DNA of 20,105 nt, from IMG/VR virus record IMGVR_UViG_3300009180_000275, positions 1 to 20,105 of that record. One strand, 5' to 3'. The notes beneath the pieces are model-generated. The model was not told the DNA's origin and did not search any database. It saw only the letters and a list, made by a program, of their open reading frames with translations. Position numbers and translations under genes: made by a program. Every line of letters begins with the position of its first letter. Positions within the stretch are counted from its first letter, which is position 1. Of this stretch, positions 1-19,165 are shown one piece after another. This stretch comes from a virus.

Positions 1-28
1 GCTTAGGGAAGCGCAATGGCTTATGATG
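1..28 (+). promoter_or_regulatory. Promoter-like element, copy 1 (GGCTTATGAT core)
   Basis: TATGAT at 22-27 looks like a -10 box within the core GGCTTATGAT. The same core recurs at 4630-4639 (+) and 19142-19133 (-). From 1 to 28 this copy matches 4613-4640 at nearly every base. No convincing TTGACA-type -35 box is visible at the expected distance. Bases 1-10 (GCTTAGGGAA) look like the end of a preceding 18-nt unit that the window edge cuts off; the full tandem pair is seen in copy 2. The element precedes the rightward gene at 107. Confidence 0.6.
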
Positions 29-33
29 TGGGG

Positions 34-80
34 GCCGGGTGGCCCTTGCGGCTTGCACTACAGGGGGCGTCCCACCCGGC
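34..80 (+). promoter_or_regulatory. 5' leader hairpin, copy 1
   Basis: GCCGGGTGG (34-42) pairs perfectly with CCACCCGGC (72-80) across 29 nt. Inside, 43-48 (CCCTTG) can pair with 61-66 (CAGGGG) with one G-U, giving a two-tier stem. The stem starts 6 nt after TATGAT, so the transcript would begin at the hairpin. It ends 26 nt before the ATG at 107. Copy 2 (4646-4690) has the same geometry with a different but still paired stem sequence. Confidence 0.65.
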
Positions 81-106
81 ACCCATTCACCACAACCGAC
101 AGACTG

Positions 107-4604: not shown

Positions 4605-4640
4605 CCGTAATGGCTTAGGAAACCGCAATGGCTTATGATG
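4605..4640 (+). promoter_or_regulatory. Promoter-like element, copy 2, with tandem 18-nt repeat
   Basis: Two tandem 18-nt units, starting CCGTAATGGCTTA (4605) and CCGCAATGGCTTA (4623), differ at one base over their first 13. The second contains the TATGAT -10-like box (4634-4639). No standard -35 box is seen. The region lies between divergent genes (4579 on minus, 4717 on plus), so the repeats could bind a regulator acting in both directions. Copy 1 at the left edge appears to have the same two-unit build. Confidence 0.6.
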
Positions 4641-4645
4641 GGCGG

Positions 4646-4690
4646 GCCGGAGGGTTTCCTGTTCTGCGCAGGGACCGTTGTACCTCCGGC
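4646..4690 (+). promoter_or_regulatory. 5' leader hairpin, copy 2
   Basis: GCCGGAGG (4646-4653) pairs perfectly with CCTCCGGC (4683-4690) across 29 nt. An inner stem, 4657-4661 (TCCTG) with 4669-4673 (CAGGG), forms with one T-G pair. The stem starts 6 nt after TATGAT and ends 26 nt before ATG 4717. All three distances equal those of copy 1, and the stem differences are compensated on both sides. Confidence 0.65.
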
Positions 4691-4716
4691 ACCCTCTTCA
4701 CCACCACCGACCGACC

Positions 4717-8241: not shown

Positions 8242-9750
8242 TCAGGCTGCCGCCGGCTGCGACTCATCCAGCGGTGTGCTCATATCCAGCGGCGTGGTCG
8301 TGTCGTTCCGCCCTGGTGTTGGCGCCCCCAGCGTCGGCCGCTCCCTGCGGATCCGCTTCATCTCATCTTCCACACTGCTCGTTGCCCGGTTGAACCCACC
8401 GCGCTGCAGCTCCTCCACGGCGCTCTCCTGGCTGATCAGCGGCTCGCCACCGGTTAGGTCCATCAGCGCCTTGGCACCCTGCGCATCAAGCGGCGGGACA
8501 AAGGCGTTCTCGTCCATCGTGAGGCCAGCCCCGACAGGTAGCTCCTCCCCGGTATAGAGGCACCAGATCGCCAGGATGGACTGCATCACGGACTTCTTAC
8601 GCTCGCCCATCGCTTTGATGCTCACCTGCGTCCTGCCGCCCTCAAGCTGCGCCTGGGTGGCCGTCTTGGTGATCTTGCTATCACCGCTGAGGAAGCCCAG
8701 CAGCTGCTGATTGATCAGCTCAACCACTTCCTTGATCTGTTCCCGTTGTTCGGCTAGAGATGTGGCTTCGGGTTCTGACCAATAGAACTTCCCACCTTTT
8801 TCTAGCCGGATGACGCTGTTGGGACCGATAACCAATGGCCTTTCCGGTTGGCCTGGCCCAACTGGGATGCCACCCTCCTCAACCGGCACCGGCATGGCGC
8901 ACTTATGAGTCTTCTCTTCCAGATCGCTGGACTTCCGAAAATGCTGGAAGCAGTGCTCCACCACCTGCCGCAATGGCTGCCCACCTTTGCCGAACCCGGC
9001 CTTCTCGGCTGGATACCAAACTACCGGGCAGATCGGCAGCGGTTTCTGTTTGGCGTCCAGGTATTGGCCATTGCTCACCTCGTCAATAGTTAGCCTGCCG
9101 TCTGCCTGCTTGGTCAGCTTGTACAGCGTCCACTTCCCCGCCTCGATCACCCGGTAGCGCTCCTCATAGATCACCCCAAAGTCGCCGTCGGGGGAATCAA
9201 CCTCAGCCCATTCCAGGAACGTGCAGCGGGTCACCACCTCCACCGAATTGACGATGGCCGTCCGCCAGTTCAGGCACGTTGAACGGGTGCGGCTGACTAG
9301 ATATGGGCGCCGCTTCAGTGCAGCCTCGCTGGCCCCATCGGTGGGTTGACCATCGGGCATCTCCACCAGGACCGGCACCCCACCATCTCGAAGGCATAGG
9401 GCATCCACGGTGAGCCACCACGCCTTAAGGCTATTGCCCTCTAGGTCAATGTTGTCCATCGCCTTCTCAAAGGTCGGCGGTGCGTTCACTAGGTCGCTGC
9501 GCGATAGCACCCCTGCGAAGGCTTCGATACCAGCCCGGAAGAAGTCGGCGAACACCGCACGACCCAGCCTGCCCTCATAGGCATTAGGCGGTTCCGCTGG
9601 TTCGGCCGGCAGATACTTTCGCTTGGTCGCCTCACCCTTCAGGCAATACCAGGCGTCGTAGGCTCGCTCCAGATCCTCGGCGTACTCCCGCAAGATCGGG
9701 TGCCGGAACGATGGCAGCTTCGGGTCGGTTCCAGGATGTTCAGAATGCAC
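8242..9750 (-). CDS. Portal protein, DUF4055 family
   Basis: A protein of 502 residues, a usual length for portals. The N-terminal part fits DUF4055 portal proteins: AYDAWYCLKGEATKRKYLPA, EPAEPPNAYEGRL, then FADFFRAGIEAFAGVLSR. Later segments include GVPVLVEMPDG, an acidic beta region, and the C-terminal long helix with EVVELINQQLLGF and TATQAQLEGGRTQVSI. The portal forms a dodecameric ring at one capsid vertex, through which the terminase pumps DNA and to which the neck attaches. Start is GTG 9750. The C-terminal tail is low-complexity (TPGRNDTTTPLDMSTPLDES). Neighbours fit: terminase upstream, Mu F-like protein downstream. Confidence 0.85.
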   Translation of the reverse strand: MHSEHPGTDPKLPSFRHPILREYAEDLERAYDAWYCLKGEATKRKYLPAEPAEPPNAYEGRLGRAVFADFFRAGIEAFAGVLSRSDLVNAPPTFEKAMDNIDLEGNSLKAWWLTVDALCLRDGGVPVLVEMPDGQPTDGASEAALKRRPYLVSRTRSTCLNWRTAIVNSVEVVTRCTFLEWAEVDSPDGDFGVIYEERYRVIEAGKWTLYKLTKQADGRLTIDEVSNGQYLDAKQKPLPICPVVWYPAEKAGFGKGGQPLRQVVEHCFQHFRKSSDLEEKTHKCAMPVPVEEGGIPVGPGQPERPLVIGPNSVIRLEKGGKFYWSEPEATSLAEQREQIKEVVELINQQLLGFLSGDSKITKTATQAQLEGGRTQVSIKAMGERKKSVMQSILAIWCLYTGEELPVGAGLTMDENAFVPPLDAQGAKALMDLTGGEPLISQESAVEELQRGGFNRATSSVEDEMKRIRRERPTLGAPTPGRNDTTTPLDMSTPLDESQPAAA

Positions 9751-9790: not shown

Positions 9791-10705
9791 CTACAGCTTC
9801 ACCGCCTTGGGATGGGGCTTGCGGCGTTGGAACAGGGACGGCTGCACCACCTCGACCGGTGCGGGCCTGGGCTGGCGGGGGCGCCGCTCACGGGGTGCGG
9901 GGGCAATGGTGGCAACGTTGAGACCTAGGAGCCCCTGGCGGAACTGCTCCAGCGTGCGTCCACGCAGCTGCGCCTTCAGGAGGTTGTGGAACTGAATCAT
10001 CGGCCCGGAAGGGTAGGCCCGCTTGAATGGATCAGTAGCCCAGCGCTCTAGGAGGCCACGATCAGCGGGGCGCAGGTTGGCAAAGGCTGCATCGGTGAGG
10101 GCATAGAGCGCGGGGACAAGGGCTGCCTCGGTGGCCTGTGGCTGGTGCTGGCTAAAGAGGGTCAGCTCCTCCTCCAGCTCCACCGTGCCGACCATGCCGC
10201 CAAGCATCTCGGTGATCTCTTCCTCGGTAAAACAGGGCAGGGCCTCGACAACCTGGGCGAGCGTCTGCCCCTCGGCCAGCATCCGGCGAACACGGGGGTA
10301 GTGCTCACGCCACTTTGATGGCATCTTCACGTCGTAGCCATGGTCACGGATGTGGTGTTTGATGGCCCCCTCGATGAACATGCACACGCAGGTTGAGAGC
10401 GCATAGGGGCGCTCTGTGGCGGGGTTGATCCTGTGCGGGTCATAGCGGCGGCACCCGTTGATCAGCCCCTCCAGGGCGGGGCCGATGAAGTCTTCAAAGG
10501 GGCGGGAGCAGCGGCGGGACCACTTAGCAGCAGCTGCCTCGGCTAGCCCCTGGTTCTCAACAATCAGCCGCTCGGATAGTTCAGTGCGCGGTGGCGCTCC
10601 AGCCTTAGCCGGTTGCTCCAGCGGCGCACCCTTGCGCTCCCGTCGCTTGCGCTTGGGGAGCTCCGGGAGGGTATCGGTGGGTTGTGGCGGGGAGATGGTG
10701 GTCAT
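9791..10705 (-). CDS. Sigma-70 family-like factor (phage-encoded)
   Basis: A protein of 304 residues. After a basic, Pro-rich N-terminus (about 1-40), residues 47-125 match sigma region 2: LIVENQGLAEAAAAKWSRR, PFEDFIGPALEGLINGCRRY, YALSTCVCMFIEGAIKHHIR, DHG. This compares well with the 'dL.q.g..GLi.A...yDp...FsTya...irg.i..~lRdh' pattern of group 3 sigma factors such as the SigB/SigF type. Residues about 128-169 (MPSKWREHYPRVRRM, LAQVVEALPCFTEEEITEML) resemble region 3. A standard region 4 helix-turn-helix is not evident; only LRPADRGLLERW (211-222) hints at it. The C-terminus is basic and Pro-rich. The start overlaps the previous stop by ATGA. A role in directing host RNA polymerase to phage promoters is inference. 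Confidence 0.65.
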   Translation of the reverse strand: MTTISPPQPTDTLPELPKRKRRERKGAPLEQPAKAGAPPRTELSERLIVENQGLAEAAAAKWSRRCSRPFEDFIGPALEGLINGCRRYDPHRINPATERPYALSTCVCMFIEGAIKHHIRDHGYDVKMPSKWREHYPRVRRMLAEGQTLAQVVEALPCFTEEEITEMLGGMVGTVELEEELTLFSQHQPQATEAALVPALYALTDAAFANLRPADRGLLERWATDPFKRAYPSGPMIQFHNLLKAQLRGRTLEQFRQGLLGLNVATIAPAPRERRPRQPRPAPVEVVQPSLFQRRKPHPKAVKL

Positions 10706-10995
10706 AACCGGGCAGCCTTTCTGCTGGCATGGTCTTCGCGGAGAACGTCCAGCACCTCGACAGGAAGCAAGATGCGGCCACCTTCATCCGCGCCCCTTCC
10801 AGTGTGAGCCTGCAGGTATTCGTACAACTTGCTTTTGGTTATTCCGTGAGGGCTGGATCCTTGGTATTGAATGCAGGTTATCGGGATCATCTCTGACCAG
10901 TCCTGCTCCAGCAGCCAATCGACAACTTCAGGCGGCGGTAGGTGCGGGTCGCGGGGTGTGGTGCTCATTGGCTGGGTGGGTTGGTGGGTGTTCAT
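10702..10995 (-). CDS. Small protein with possible helix-turn-helix segment
   Basis: 97 residues from ATG 10995, which overlaps the large-terminase stop by ATGA. A second ATG at 10968 (MSTTPRDPHL) follows a CACCAACCCACCCAGCC leader and is a realistic alternative giving 88 residues. Residues about 52-65 (ITKSKLYEYLQAHT) look like a short recognition helix, followed by RILLPVEVLDVLRED. This might be an excisionase or MerR-type DNA-binding fold, but I do not recognise the family. It ends overlapping the sigma-like gene (ATGA), so the two may be co-translated and could work together. Confidence 0.65.
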   Translation of the reverse strand: MNTHQPTQPMSTTPRDPHLPPPEVVDWLLEQDWSEMIPITCIQYQGSSPHGITKSKLYEYLQAHTGRGADEGGRILLPVEVLDVLREDHASRKAARL

Positions 10996-12377
10996 CGGAA
11001 GCCGGGGATAGCGGATCGCCGCCGGGTGGGGGCTTCCGGTTGCTGCTGCGGTAGGCCATGGCCGTAGTGAGCAGTGGTCACCCGCATGGGGCCCGTGCCT
11101 GCCACGTGATTGATCGCCTGAGTCACCGAATCCGCTAGGTCATCGTGCCCATCTTCTCGCACCCCCAGCGATAGCAACTGCTCCTCTAGGACACGCAGCC
11201 ATGGTGCGCTGTGCGTCTCCCTCGGGTGAAGGATCAGGCCTTGCTCATAGCTTGGCGCTGCTGCATTGCCACGGGCCGTCTTGCCGCCGATGGGGTTGCA
11301 CTCCCGGATGATGAACCCGGCTGCTTCGCGTTTGAGCTTGTCGATGATGGCGCTGCCGTTGGCGCGGTCCTCGACCAGCAGCTCACCGAACTGCCACCGA
11401 TCCCAGAGGCTTTGGATCAGGGCGAGGGTATCCACGAAGCCGATCTTTTGATTGGCGGCCCCTAGCAGGTACATCCTGCCGCTGTGGTAGCCCCAAACGG
11501 TGATGCCCACGTAGTCGTTCTTTTTGCCTTCTTTGAAGTTGGCATCGACGCTGGCCAGGATCCGCTGAAAGCCTCGGGTTGGCAGATCCTCGGGCCCGTA
11601 GTAGCTGAACCACTCGCGGCGGAAAATGGCGCGACCCTTGAGGTCGATGATCTCGGCCCCGTACTCCTGCGCGAACAAGTCAGGGCCCAGGGTGCGGCGG
11701 GCTGCCTCGATCTCCGATTCAGCAACCCGGCCGCCATCGGCGGTGGTGAAGCGGAACCCGCTGCCCTCAGGATCCTCGCCGCTTTCGGCTGCCTTGAGGG
11801 CATCGGTGAACCAGTTCTCACCGGCTGGGGTGGTTATGAACCAGGCCGGTCCCCGTTGATCGGATAGGGCAGGGCGCAGCACCATCGTCCAGGCGTCCTG
11901 GCGCACGTAGGCGGCTTCGTCTACCACGCAGCCGGAGAGGCTGACACCACGCAGGCGGTCAGGGTCTTCTGCACCCTTGAGGAAGATCCTGGCGCCATTG
12001 ATCAGCTCGATGGATAGCTCCCCCTCGTTCTTGGCTGCGAGCGCGTTGGGCGGCGTCATCCGCTTCAGGTCTACCCAGGCGATCTGCTTCGCCATGCGGT
12101 AGGTGGCAGTCACGTAGTAGAACAACCCGCCTGGCGTGGCCATCGCCCAGGTGAGCAGGCGGGTGATGCTCAGGTAGGTCTTCCCAAAGCGACGACCGGC
12201 CATCAGGTACTTGAACCGGGCCGGGTCGTCGTAGACGCTGCGCTGGGGATCGCTGAGGGTGTCGTAAAGGCTGGCGCCAATCAGGCTGAGGTCTGTGGTG
12301 CAGGGGAGGGCAGCATCACGCTCCAGCTCCAGCATGGCAAGGCGCGAGGAGGCGTCAGGGGCGCGGATGGGGGTCAT
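10992..12377 (-). CDS. terL: Terminase large subunit
   Basis: 461 residues from ATG 12377, chosen because it overlaps the HNH stop as ATGA and is preceded by GGAGAAGG at a good distance; an in-frame start at 12422 would overlap the previous gene further. ATPase domain: Walker A MAGRRFGKTYLS (about 60-71), Walker B with the catalytic Glu in SGCVVDEAAYV (about 148-158), and a coupling motif near FITTPAGENW. Nuclease domain: SVDANFKEGKKNDYVGI, ELLVEDRANGSAI and EDGHDDLADSV supply the acidic metal ligands. The enzyme cuts concatemeric DNA and drives packaging into the prohead through the portal. Neighbours (small terminase, HNH, portal) agree. Confidence 0.93.
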   Translation of the reverse strand: MTPIRAPDASSRLAMLELERDAALPCTTDLSLIGASLYDTLSDPQRSVYDDPARFKYLMAGRRFGKTYLSITRLLTWAMATPGGLFYYVTATYRMAKQIAWVDLKRMTPPNALAAKNEGELSIELINGARIFLKGAEDPDRLRGVSLSGCVVDEAAYVRQDAWTMVLRPALSDQRGPAWFITTPAGENWFTDALKAAESGEDPEGSGFRFTTADGGRVAESEIEAARRTLGPDLFAQEYGAEIIDLKGRAIFRREWFSYYGPEDLPTRGFQRILASVDANFKEGKKNDYVGITVWGYHSGRMYLLGAANQKIGFVDTLALIQSLWDRWQFGELLVEDRANGSAIIDKLKREAAGFIIRECNPIGGKTARGNAAAPSYEQGLILHPRETHSAPWLRVLEEQLLSLGVREDGHDDLADSVTQAINHVAGTGPMRVTTAHYGHGLPQQQPEAPTRRRSAIPGFR

Positions 12378-12964
12378 GCGGCCTTCTCCGGTAAGTCCTT
12401 CAGGGCAGACGTAATAGCCCATTCAATGGAGGAAATTTTAGTTTCAGGACCCTTACCGCTTTGCGAAAAATGAATTGCCGTCTTTCTTAGTTGCTCTCTC
12501 ATCTGACGAGCTATTGCATCATGATCAACACTAGACACATTTTTGCCCTGAAGTGCATCCGTAATTGATTGCATAAGAGGCCAATAGCGGCCCAGCCCCA
12601 AGCCGGACATAGGATTTTGCTGCTTACTAATCCAGCTCCAGAAGAACTCTGGATCTGGTGTGTCTGGCATCAAATCGTGGCAGTAGCGACACAAAGGGAC
12701 AATGTTTGAGGGATCGGGCTCTCCCCCTATTGACTTTGCGACTATATGGCAGCGTTGCAATCTCTTGCCTACGTCATGTCCGCAGCACCAGCACCTTTCC
12801 CACTCCTCCATTGAATCAGTCCATTCAATGGCGAGGCAGTCGTCAAGGATTCTTTCTTTATGCGCCTTCCAACAAGCAGCGATCCATGAGGGTGCTTTTG
12901 TGCTGGCTTCCTGCACTACTTTGGTTTGCAGGTAATCGCTGAGGCAGAGCTGCGTGCTTGTCAT
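12374..12964 (-). CDS. HNH endonuclease-like protein
   Basis: 196 residues from ATG 12964 (MTSTQLCLSDYLQTKVVQEA), which overlaps the previous stop by ATGA; an in-frame start at 12994 would overlap further. The HNH core lies near residues 59-100: CWCCGHDVG, LQRCHIVAKSIGGEPDPSN and IVPLCRYCHDLMP, with two Cys pairs and the H in CHIVAKS. The C-terminal half is helical and unrecognised (ITDALQGKNVSSVDHDAIAR). The DNA is visibly richer in A+T than the terminase genes on both sides. In HK97-like phages an HNH protein beside the terminase is known to assist DNA cleavage at packaging. That role is plausible here because the gene lies between both terminase subunits. Confidence 0.85.
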   Translation of the reverse strand: MTSTQLCLSDYLQTKVVQEASTKAPSWIAACWKAHKERILDDCLAIEWTDSMEEWERCWCCGHDVGKRLQRCHIVAKSIGGEPDPSNIVPLCRYCHDLMPDTPDPEFFWSWISKQQNPMSGLGLGRYWPLMQSITDALQGKNVSSVDHDAIARQMREQLRKTAIHFSQSGKGPETKISSIEWAITSALKDLPEKAA

Positions 12965-14793: not shown

Positions 14794-15447
14794 CTAAAAC
14801 TCATCCCCACGATCCGCATCCTGTTCCAATGCAGACACCACCTCCGCCACCTCCGGGGCTGGTGGGGCGGTGGGGGCAACACAGGAACAAGCACCTGGCA
14901 ACGGGCAACCTCGTGGCTCAATCGCAACTGGCTGACCTGGTGGGTTCTCGCGCAGCCATGCTGCGGCGCGGTCGCTGATCGTCGTGATTCCGGCTACGGT
15001 GTGAGCGCCGATGCAGTCAGCCATTGCAGCCACCTGCTCCAGTAGGGGGCGAGCCGCAAGGGACTCGGCGGGTGAGTAGGGCGCTGGCGGGGCGGTGGGG
15101 CGGCCCCAGCGGGCGATGGAGGCGCCGATCATCTCCTGGAGGATTTCTAGGCCTTCCCCCCGATCGTCGTTAAGGTGAAACCCGAACTCGGCACAAAGCT
15201 CGTCAACTTCGGCAAAGCTCGGCCCCTCCCCCTCCGGCTGGGCCGCCAGGGCGGCGCGGGCGCGGGTAATCAAGGCGCGGTGTTTGTGGTAAGGATTGGC
15301 GTCGTCGTATTCAGCCAATGGCTCCAGCAGCTCAGCACACAGGGCGCGGGTAATCAAGGCGCGGTGTTCGTGGTAAGGATTGGCGTCGTCGTATTCAGCC
15401 AATGGCTGCAGCAGCTCAGCACACAGGGCGCGGAAGTCGGTGTTCAT
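14794..15447 (-). CDS. Modular accessory protein with duplicated FRALCAEL unit
   Basis: A protein of 217 residues. The N-terminus has a 28-residue unit, RALCAELLQPLAEYDDANPY plus HEHRALIT, present twice in tandem and encoded by an 84-bp DNA duplication (15258-15425). It is followed by RARAALAAQPEGEGPSFAEV, DELCAEFGF and EILQEMIGASIARWGRP, a module shared with the protein at 5132. The rest is Ala/Pro-rich with ITTISDRAAAWLRENP. The start overlaps the upstream stop as ATGA. The family seems to be a phage accessory set with mix-and-match modules; function unknown. It is directly coupled to the DUF551-deaminase gene. Confidence 0.8.
   Translation of the reverse strand: MNTDFRALCAELLQPLAEYDDANPYHEHRALITRALCAELLEPLAEYDDANPYHKHRALITRARAALAAQPEGEGPSFAEVDELCAEFGFHLNDDRGEGLEILQEMIGASIARWGRPTAPPAPYSPAESLAARPLLEQVAAMADCIGAHTVAGITTISDRAAAWLRENPPGQPVAIEPRGCPLPGACSCVAPTAPPAPEVAEVVSALEQDADRGDEF
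15258..15425. repeat. 84-bp in-frame tandem duplication
   Basis: Bases 15258-15341 and 15342-15425 are near-identical copies; I see two differences (for example TGTTTGTGG against TGTTCGTGG). A partial third start, GGGCGCGG, follows at 15426. The unit encodes 28 residues and keeps the frame. High identity suggests a recent event. Confidence 0.9.
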
Positions 15448-19132: not shown

Positions 19133-19165
19133 ATCATAAGCCGTAAAGCCCGCTTTCGCAAAGCC
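19133..19165 (-). promoter_or_regulatory. Promoter-like element, copy 3
   Basis: GGCTTATGAT (minus strand, 19142-19133) matches all ten core bases of copies 1 and 2; further upstream the match is weak. It lies between a terminator-like hairpin (19233-19205) and a leader hairpin (19125-19109), as expected of the start of a leftward transcription unit. It would serve the run of genes starting at 19000. Confidence 0.5.

Follow-up and report, generated by a model that had tools for sequence, protein, structure and literature searches.

The open reading frame between the terminase and portal genes of this phage is almost certainly a real, diverged sigma-70-family factor. Its best reading, over which our judgement is evenly poised, is as a late sigma resembling gp55 of phage T4, which would use promoters with a -10 element only and be tethered on replicating DNA by a sliding clamp, normally the host's. 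The window (the whole stretch of DNA analysed) is the 20.1-kb viral record IMGVR_UViG_3300009180_000275, and its source is a freshwater cyanobacterial phage. The features discussed below, with the evidence for each, are as follows.

18..27, plus strand: GGCTTATGAT element preceding a nested plus-strand gene group (exact match)
4630..4639, plus strand: GGCTTATGAT element preceding a nested plus-strand gene group (exact match)
8242..9750, minus strand: portal protein (phrog_145, E 1.1e-68)
9791..10705, minus strand: phage sigma-70-family factor, 304 aa (phrog_351, phrog_36098, profile against the PDB)
9830..9844, minus strand: QPSLF (aa 288-292), predicted beta-clamp-binding motif (tail conservation, lineages, background count)
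9845..9925, minus strand: low-confidence basic/proline-rich linker (aa 261-287; pLDDT about 46-55)
9926..10129, minus strand: four-helix C-terminal domain where region 4 would lie (aa 193-260; AF2 of the domain alone, pLDDT 82)
10196..10318, minus strand: sigma region 3-like helices (aa 130-170; AF2 helices, profile alignment to SigB/SigA)
10346..10582, minus strand: sigma region 2 (aa 42-120), the domain for core RNA polymerase and -10 recognition (AF2 helices, pLDDT about 85-91)
10995-10702, minus strand: 97-aa ORF between TerL and the sigma gene
10992..12422, minus strand: terminase large subunit, TerL (Pfam Terminase_6N, E 4e-14, and 6C; phrog_38, E 4.8e-38)
13739-13236, minus strand: TerS
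19133..19142, minus strand: GGCTTATGAT promoter-like element upstream of the packaging operon (TerS, TerL, sigma, portal; exact match)

A sigma factor beside the terminase

The original prediction placed a sigma-70-like ORF at 9791-10705, between the terminase and portal genes, and both position and identity were borne out; the ORF lies on the minus strand and encodes 304 aa. The protein matches two PHROG sigma families, phrog_351 (E 2.1e-14) and phrog_36098 (E 4.6e-14). Pfam Sigma70_r2 reached only E 0.23 against the single window sequence, while a profile of 24 relatives picked out PDB sigma factors at E 3e-13, a cyanobacterial SigA being among the aligned matches. Regions 2 and 3 of the sigma-70 family are both present: the profile aligns them with SigB, SigA and FliA, and the alignment to SigB and SigA runs through region 3, as had been proposed, where AF2 also predicts helices (residues 130-169). 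A Pfam Sigma70_r3 match was seen in one family member only (E 0.014).

The AlphaFold model of the whole protein has a mean pLDDT of 70. Structural alignments that spanned the whole chain gave rmsd values above 20 A, so the comparison was limited to separate domains. The sigma-2 domain of the model, inside which the peptides first quoted as region 2-like fall, aligned with known structures at Z of 11-12.7, among them the SigE N-domain 8b3z (Z 12.7, 2.1 A over 77 residues) and sigma70 1sig (Z 11.6, 1.5 A over 72 residues). We also considered the possibility that the whole protein belongs to a structural or otherwise unrelated helical family, and this was not found; the top fold and sequence matches are sigma factors, with the exception of a designed repeat protein (8vd6) aligned to the region-3 helices. 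As a member of the sigma-70 family, the protein would be expected to bind core RNA polymerase and to direct promoter-specific initiation.

The gene order is TerS, small HTH and HNH genes, TerL, the 97-aa ORF, sigma and portal; neither Rfam families nor tRNAs were found in the window. Close relatives of the window sigma occur at 61 IMG/VR loci. The suggestion that a sigma factor among packaging genes is unusual was only partly right. A sigma is annotated directly after TerL in cyanophages PSS2, S-CBS2, S-CRES1 and S-CRES3, and the same order is common to PSS2, S-CBS2, S-CRES1-3 and environmental relatives; a sigma beside the terminase is thus a recurring cyanosiphovirus arrangement. The sigmas of S-CRES1-3, S-CBS2 and PSS2 (annotated as rpoS/SigF, type III, and falling in phrog_36098) share with the window sigma this position and homologous regions 2-3, although at only about 30% identity. 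S-CRES1 also encodes a second sigma factor, gp7 (L063:408-1184), and a protein annotated as an SPT5-like elongation factor, gp11 (L063:2373-2636). Elsewhere in the window, 14794-15447 and 708-1355 are paralogous TDFRALCAEL genes on opposite strands, and the former has its N-terminal unit duplicated in tandem internally.

For region 4, in the HMM searches originally proposed as a check, Pfam models matched none of 24 relatives. The claim of a missing region 4 therefore stands at the level of sequence, but a four-helix domain with a weak resemblance to sigma-4 is predicted in its place. The isolated domain drew no significant Foldseek match; on re-alignment its two best chains were sigma-4 segments, one from M. 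tuberculosis SigA (Z 3.8) and one from E. coli sigma70 (Z 3.2), values within noise for helical domains. Among the few chains compared the domain alone had no confident PDB fold, and a new fold is not implied. We take it to be a region 4 that has diverged strongly, or else a replacement of region 4, and it could still read DNA.

The first of these options belongs to an alternative that we consider unlikely, namely a group-3 (SigF/FliA-like) phage sigma of the ordinary kind that drives late transcription by itself. Its region 4 would have diverged greatly into the four-helix domain, and the QxSLF tail (discussed below) would have another task, for example contact with core RNA polymerase or a phage coactivator. 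The similarity of regions 2-3 to SigB, SigA and FliA and the weak sigma-4 fold match of the four-helix domain are consistent with it, although no region 4 is seen at the sequence level. The PSS2 sigma, described in PMC2784084 as group 3 and as likely serving a particular regulon, also agrees with such a reading, and this relative presumably works without the tail motif.

The C-terminal tail and the sliding clamp

The tail motif, which the original prediction missed, is the most informative feature of the window sigma. AlphaFold gives the tail (residues 261-304) low confidence, and the motif lies within it. Among 72 complete tails of the window family the motif reads QPSLF in 67, QPSLL in three, and QPTLF and QSSLF in one each, so that Q and L are invariant and F is changed to L only, in those three. 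These tallies are residue counts; codon counts were left aside (a few loci are wrongly oriented).

The motif extends beyond the window family to three sigma lineages that are at most ~35% identical, with QPSLF, Q(G/P/A/S)SLF and QLDLF, respectively. Their joint alignment shows no change at Q288, L291 or F292 and almost none at S290, while the remaining C-terminus diverges; the variation lies mainly at motif positions 2 and 3, with Q1 and L4 fixed. In the S-CRES/S-CBS2-type sigmas, about 30% identical to the window sigma in regions 2-3, the exact C-terminal end is Q[GPAS]SLF, and in the third lineage (L139, 33% identical) it is the canonical QLDLF. The window sigma differs from the S-CRES types in that 12 largely basic residues, with a short conserved stretch RRKPHPKAVKL, come after the motif. 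The motif is missing from the PSS2 sigma, which belongs to the S-CRES-like family, and the passages of PMC2784084 consulted mention no clamp motif for it. As the three motif-bearing lineages are homologous, the motif may have arisen once.

Two further observations concern related sigmas. The annotated rpoS of S-CBS2 (L064:8010-8745; NC_015463.1 56832-57567) stops early, and in a shifted frame the homologous C-terminus continues to ...RLQGSLF and a stop, which suggests a frameshift or a sequencing error in that record's sigma gene. A distantly related sigma group on viral contigs (L141-L147) has regions 2-3 only and a long, variable N-terminus; as it ends after region 3, without a clamp motif, it was left out of the comparison.

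The bacterial beta-clamp consensus is QL(S/D)LF, in which Q1, L4 and F5 matter most; QLDLF binds best, and position 2 is tolerant, with Leu preferred (PMC11139829; see also PMC4549789). Written more generally as Q-aliphatic-x-[L/M][F/L], this consensus is matched by the window motif at Q1, L4 and F5 but not at position 2, which is Pro in the window sigma and Gly, Pro, Ala or Ser in others; L139, with Leu, is alone in being fully canonical. The clamp affinity of the window family may therefore be low. The position of the motif in a disordered C-terminus recalls Pol II and Pol IV and transposases (PMC11139829, PMC4549789). In the Cyanobium MAG that also contains a phage relative (L149), Pol III alpha has QGNLF aligned at the E. 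coli alpha clamp site; with Gly at position 2, the host motif, too, is without an aliphatic residue there. The clamp site in the E. coli alpha PDB chain used for this alignment reads QLDLF, which we take to be an engineered consensus.

Short linear motifs arise easily and Pro at position 2 is atypical (PMC11139829), so one might suppose a coincidence of a conserved tail with no clamp function. We regard this as very improbable, given the presence of the motif in three lineages, the fixed Q1 and L4 with variation mainly at positions 2 and 3, and a background in which Q..LF fell within the last 30 residues of only 1 of 656 other proteins from nine phage records (a predicted DNA methyltransferase). 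A predicted DNA methyltransferase at G002:26425-27447 (minus) has a clamp-like motif at its C-terminus (...KAVQPDLFAGVAA).

One close sibling phage of the QLDLF lineage (G022), with identities to the L139 locus of 97% for TerL, 82% for the N-terminal part (fragment) of the sigma and 93% for the portal, encodes its own DnaN of 361 aa (PF02768, E 2.7e-25; PDB clamps, E 1.7e-45; PHROG processivity factor, E 8.5e-74). The gene (L154:13221-14306) is on the reverse strand within the late region, and the C-terminal MPVQIR of its product resembles that of Cyanobium DnaN. A clamp gene in a close sibling, and a tail that matches the clamp consensus up to canonical QLDLF in one lineage, both argue against the group-3 sigma acting alone. 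Among viral contigs this DnaN had no relatives beyond G022 itself, and DnaN was not found in the window-family records searched, nor in S-CRES1, S-CBS2 or PSS2. The T4-type clamp model PF02916 had no match in 12 records, although the control set was likewise without a match.

No PolA or Pol III alpha match was found in G022, and no family A polymerase or Pol III alpha in the phage records searched. The early region of one record (G001), read by eye, has genes for SSB and for RusA-like and recombinase-like proteins, and no polymerase. These phages would therefore be expected to replicate with host Pol III and the host clamp. As to the identity of the host, one relative (L149) lies on a contig binned into a Cyanobium MAG, suggesting Cyanobium; apart from that contig, the genome scan for host-borne relatives yielded just a single S-CRES-type gene, located in a proteobacterial MAG.

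The apparent dependence on the host replisome also bears on the idea that the sigma is a bifunctional takeover protein, which would slow host replication by competing, through its tail, for the host clamp. Inhibitors of the clamp cleft such as the toxin SocB do use the same motif (PMC9690074), but a block of the clamp would harm phages that seem to lack PolA and Pol III alpha, and the gene lies within the packaging operon; we consider this idea extremely improbable.

A clamp motif might instead serve DNA transactions: the sigma, encoded beside TerL, would connect the terminase with freshly replicated DNA. A role of this kind has been suggested for T4 gp55, which binds the terminase gp17 and affects packaging (PMC9026906). 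The conserved TerL-sigma adjacency would be in keeping with this, as would QVELF near the N-terminus of some relatives' TerL. QVELF is absent, however, from the window TerL and others, and the TerL beside the sigma has been swapped for strongly diverged versions (about 25% identical locally), so that no tight co-evolution of sigma and TerL is seen. We find a terminase link quite improbable, and we do not count TerL as a co-evolving partner among the strong arguments, because diverged TerL types stand beside the same sigma. One of the TerL versions compared (window 10992-12422; L004, L006, L030, L038 and others) has a conserved QVELF/QVQLF near the N-terminus, a possible second clamp motif.

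A promoter-like element without a clear -35

The element GGCTTATGAT is real and specific to this phage group, and it has no -35 that stands clearly above background. Three exact sites occur in the window (18 plus, 4630 plus, 19142 minus), a number reached in just 1 of 100 shuffles even when one mismatch was allowed. Sixteen sigma-bearing records contain 25 exact sites, against 0 for the reversed pattern; the Cyanobium MAG has 0. There are only 2-3 sites per genome, and several sigma-bearing records (G005, G007, G009, G018) lack an exact site. In the window, and likewise in five of seven relatives examined, one of the sites stands in front of the packaging operon, and the remaining sites precede nested gene groups. 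Three classes of upstream flank share the core but no -35, and the best -35 scores at GGCTTATGAT are 3 or 4 of 6, close to those at random positions.

GGCTTATGAT sits in a larger element, in which a GC-rich, often hairpin-forming stretch follows directly. GC-rich inverted repeats are found directly downstream of many sites (window 28-100 and 4640-4710; the leaders of L006, L030 and L052), and the leader stems differ in sequence yet pair (CCGGGTGG/CCACCCGG, CCGGAGG/CCTCCGG), which describes structured 5' leaders.

The hypothesis that this sigma recognises the element came with a proposal to look for co-occurrence of gene and motif across related phages. A 14-base pattern scan of viral contigs was uninformative, as chance hits dominate, and was set aside in favor of a 28-base extended element. 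Each of the eight distinct contigs that contain the 28-base element and measure 15 kb or more also has the sigma gene, the shorter ones have other genes of the same phage group, and the case of relatives with the motif and no sigma gene did not occur. The link thus gained support from these contigs, from the 25 sites against 0, from the lack of a clear -35 and from the operon site. As all element-bearing contigs come from one phage group, however, the link is still one that we infer, and phylogeny alone could explain the co-occurrence. The chance that the window sigma reads GGCTTATGAT seems to us neither better nor worse than even.

Late transcription and replication

In T4, the gp45 clamp is bound by the sigma-2 protein gp55 through a C-terminal epitope, which sits on a divergent flexible linker. 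On the flap, gp33 stands in for sigma-4, and the late promoters, whose sole element is -10-like, are activated by the clamp (PMC2988020, PMC7892883). Reviews have called clamp-activated transcription unique to T4 and its relatives (PMC2988020, PMC9690074). In the open-access literature searched, we found no phage sigma with a beta-clamp motif.

Like gp55, the window sigma has a sigma-2 domain, no recognisable region 4, a flexible linker and a C-terminal clamp motif, a likeness at the level of the motif from which binding is predicted; and, as for T4 late genes, a -10-only promoter is proposed for the window phage. It belongs, however, to another sequence family: its PHROG matches, phrog_351 and phrog_36098, are named sigma factors rather than gp55, and the viral fold search placed a gp55 no higher than rank 40 (E 0.23). 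Unlike gp55 it also has region 3 and the extra four-helix domain, and its motif is of the bacterial beta-clamp type, not the LDFL type of T4, so that the clamp would be DnaN. The promoter GGCTTATGAT is not the T4 late consensus, and the window phage is not T4-like. The mechanism, by analogy, would work like that of gp55 in a protein outside the gp55 family.

The sigma family, domain order, motif conservation, sibling dnaN and promoter-like element are observed, and from them we infer clamp binding, activation and the reading of GGCTTATGAT by this sigma. The late sigma would redirect host RNA polymerase to phage late promoters that have an extended -10 only (probably GGCTTATGAT), with region 2 opening the -10; with a four-helix domain in place of a normal region 4, a -35 is probably not read. 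The flexible basic tail would dock on the beta sliding clamp via its QPSLF-type motif, and clamps remaining on phage DNA that has just been copied would tether the sigma-RNA polymerase holoenzyme and activate it, so that late transcription would follow phage replication, as with T4 gp55, gp33 and gp45. As no DNA polymerase of their own is apparent, the clamp would be host DnaN, except in the sibling lineage that has dnaN. From its position and the promoter, the window sigma probably serves late genes; that it is tethered by a clamp is, on balance, somewhat probable.

More tentatively, and with less than even confidence, we suggest that clamp-activated, replication-coupled late transcription exists outside the T4 group. 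The cyanosiphoviruses would join the role of gp55 (sigma-2) and a gp33-like role at the flap (four-helix domain) in a single protein able to dock on the cellular beta clamp. The dnaN of one lineage, in which no polymerase gene was found, would then be a dedicated transcription clamp. If this is true, phages reached the coupling of late genes to replication by another route, via the host's own clamp, and it would explain the timing of late genes in cyanophages without a DNA polymerase of their own.
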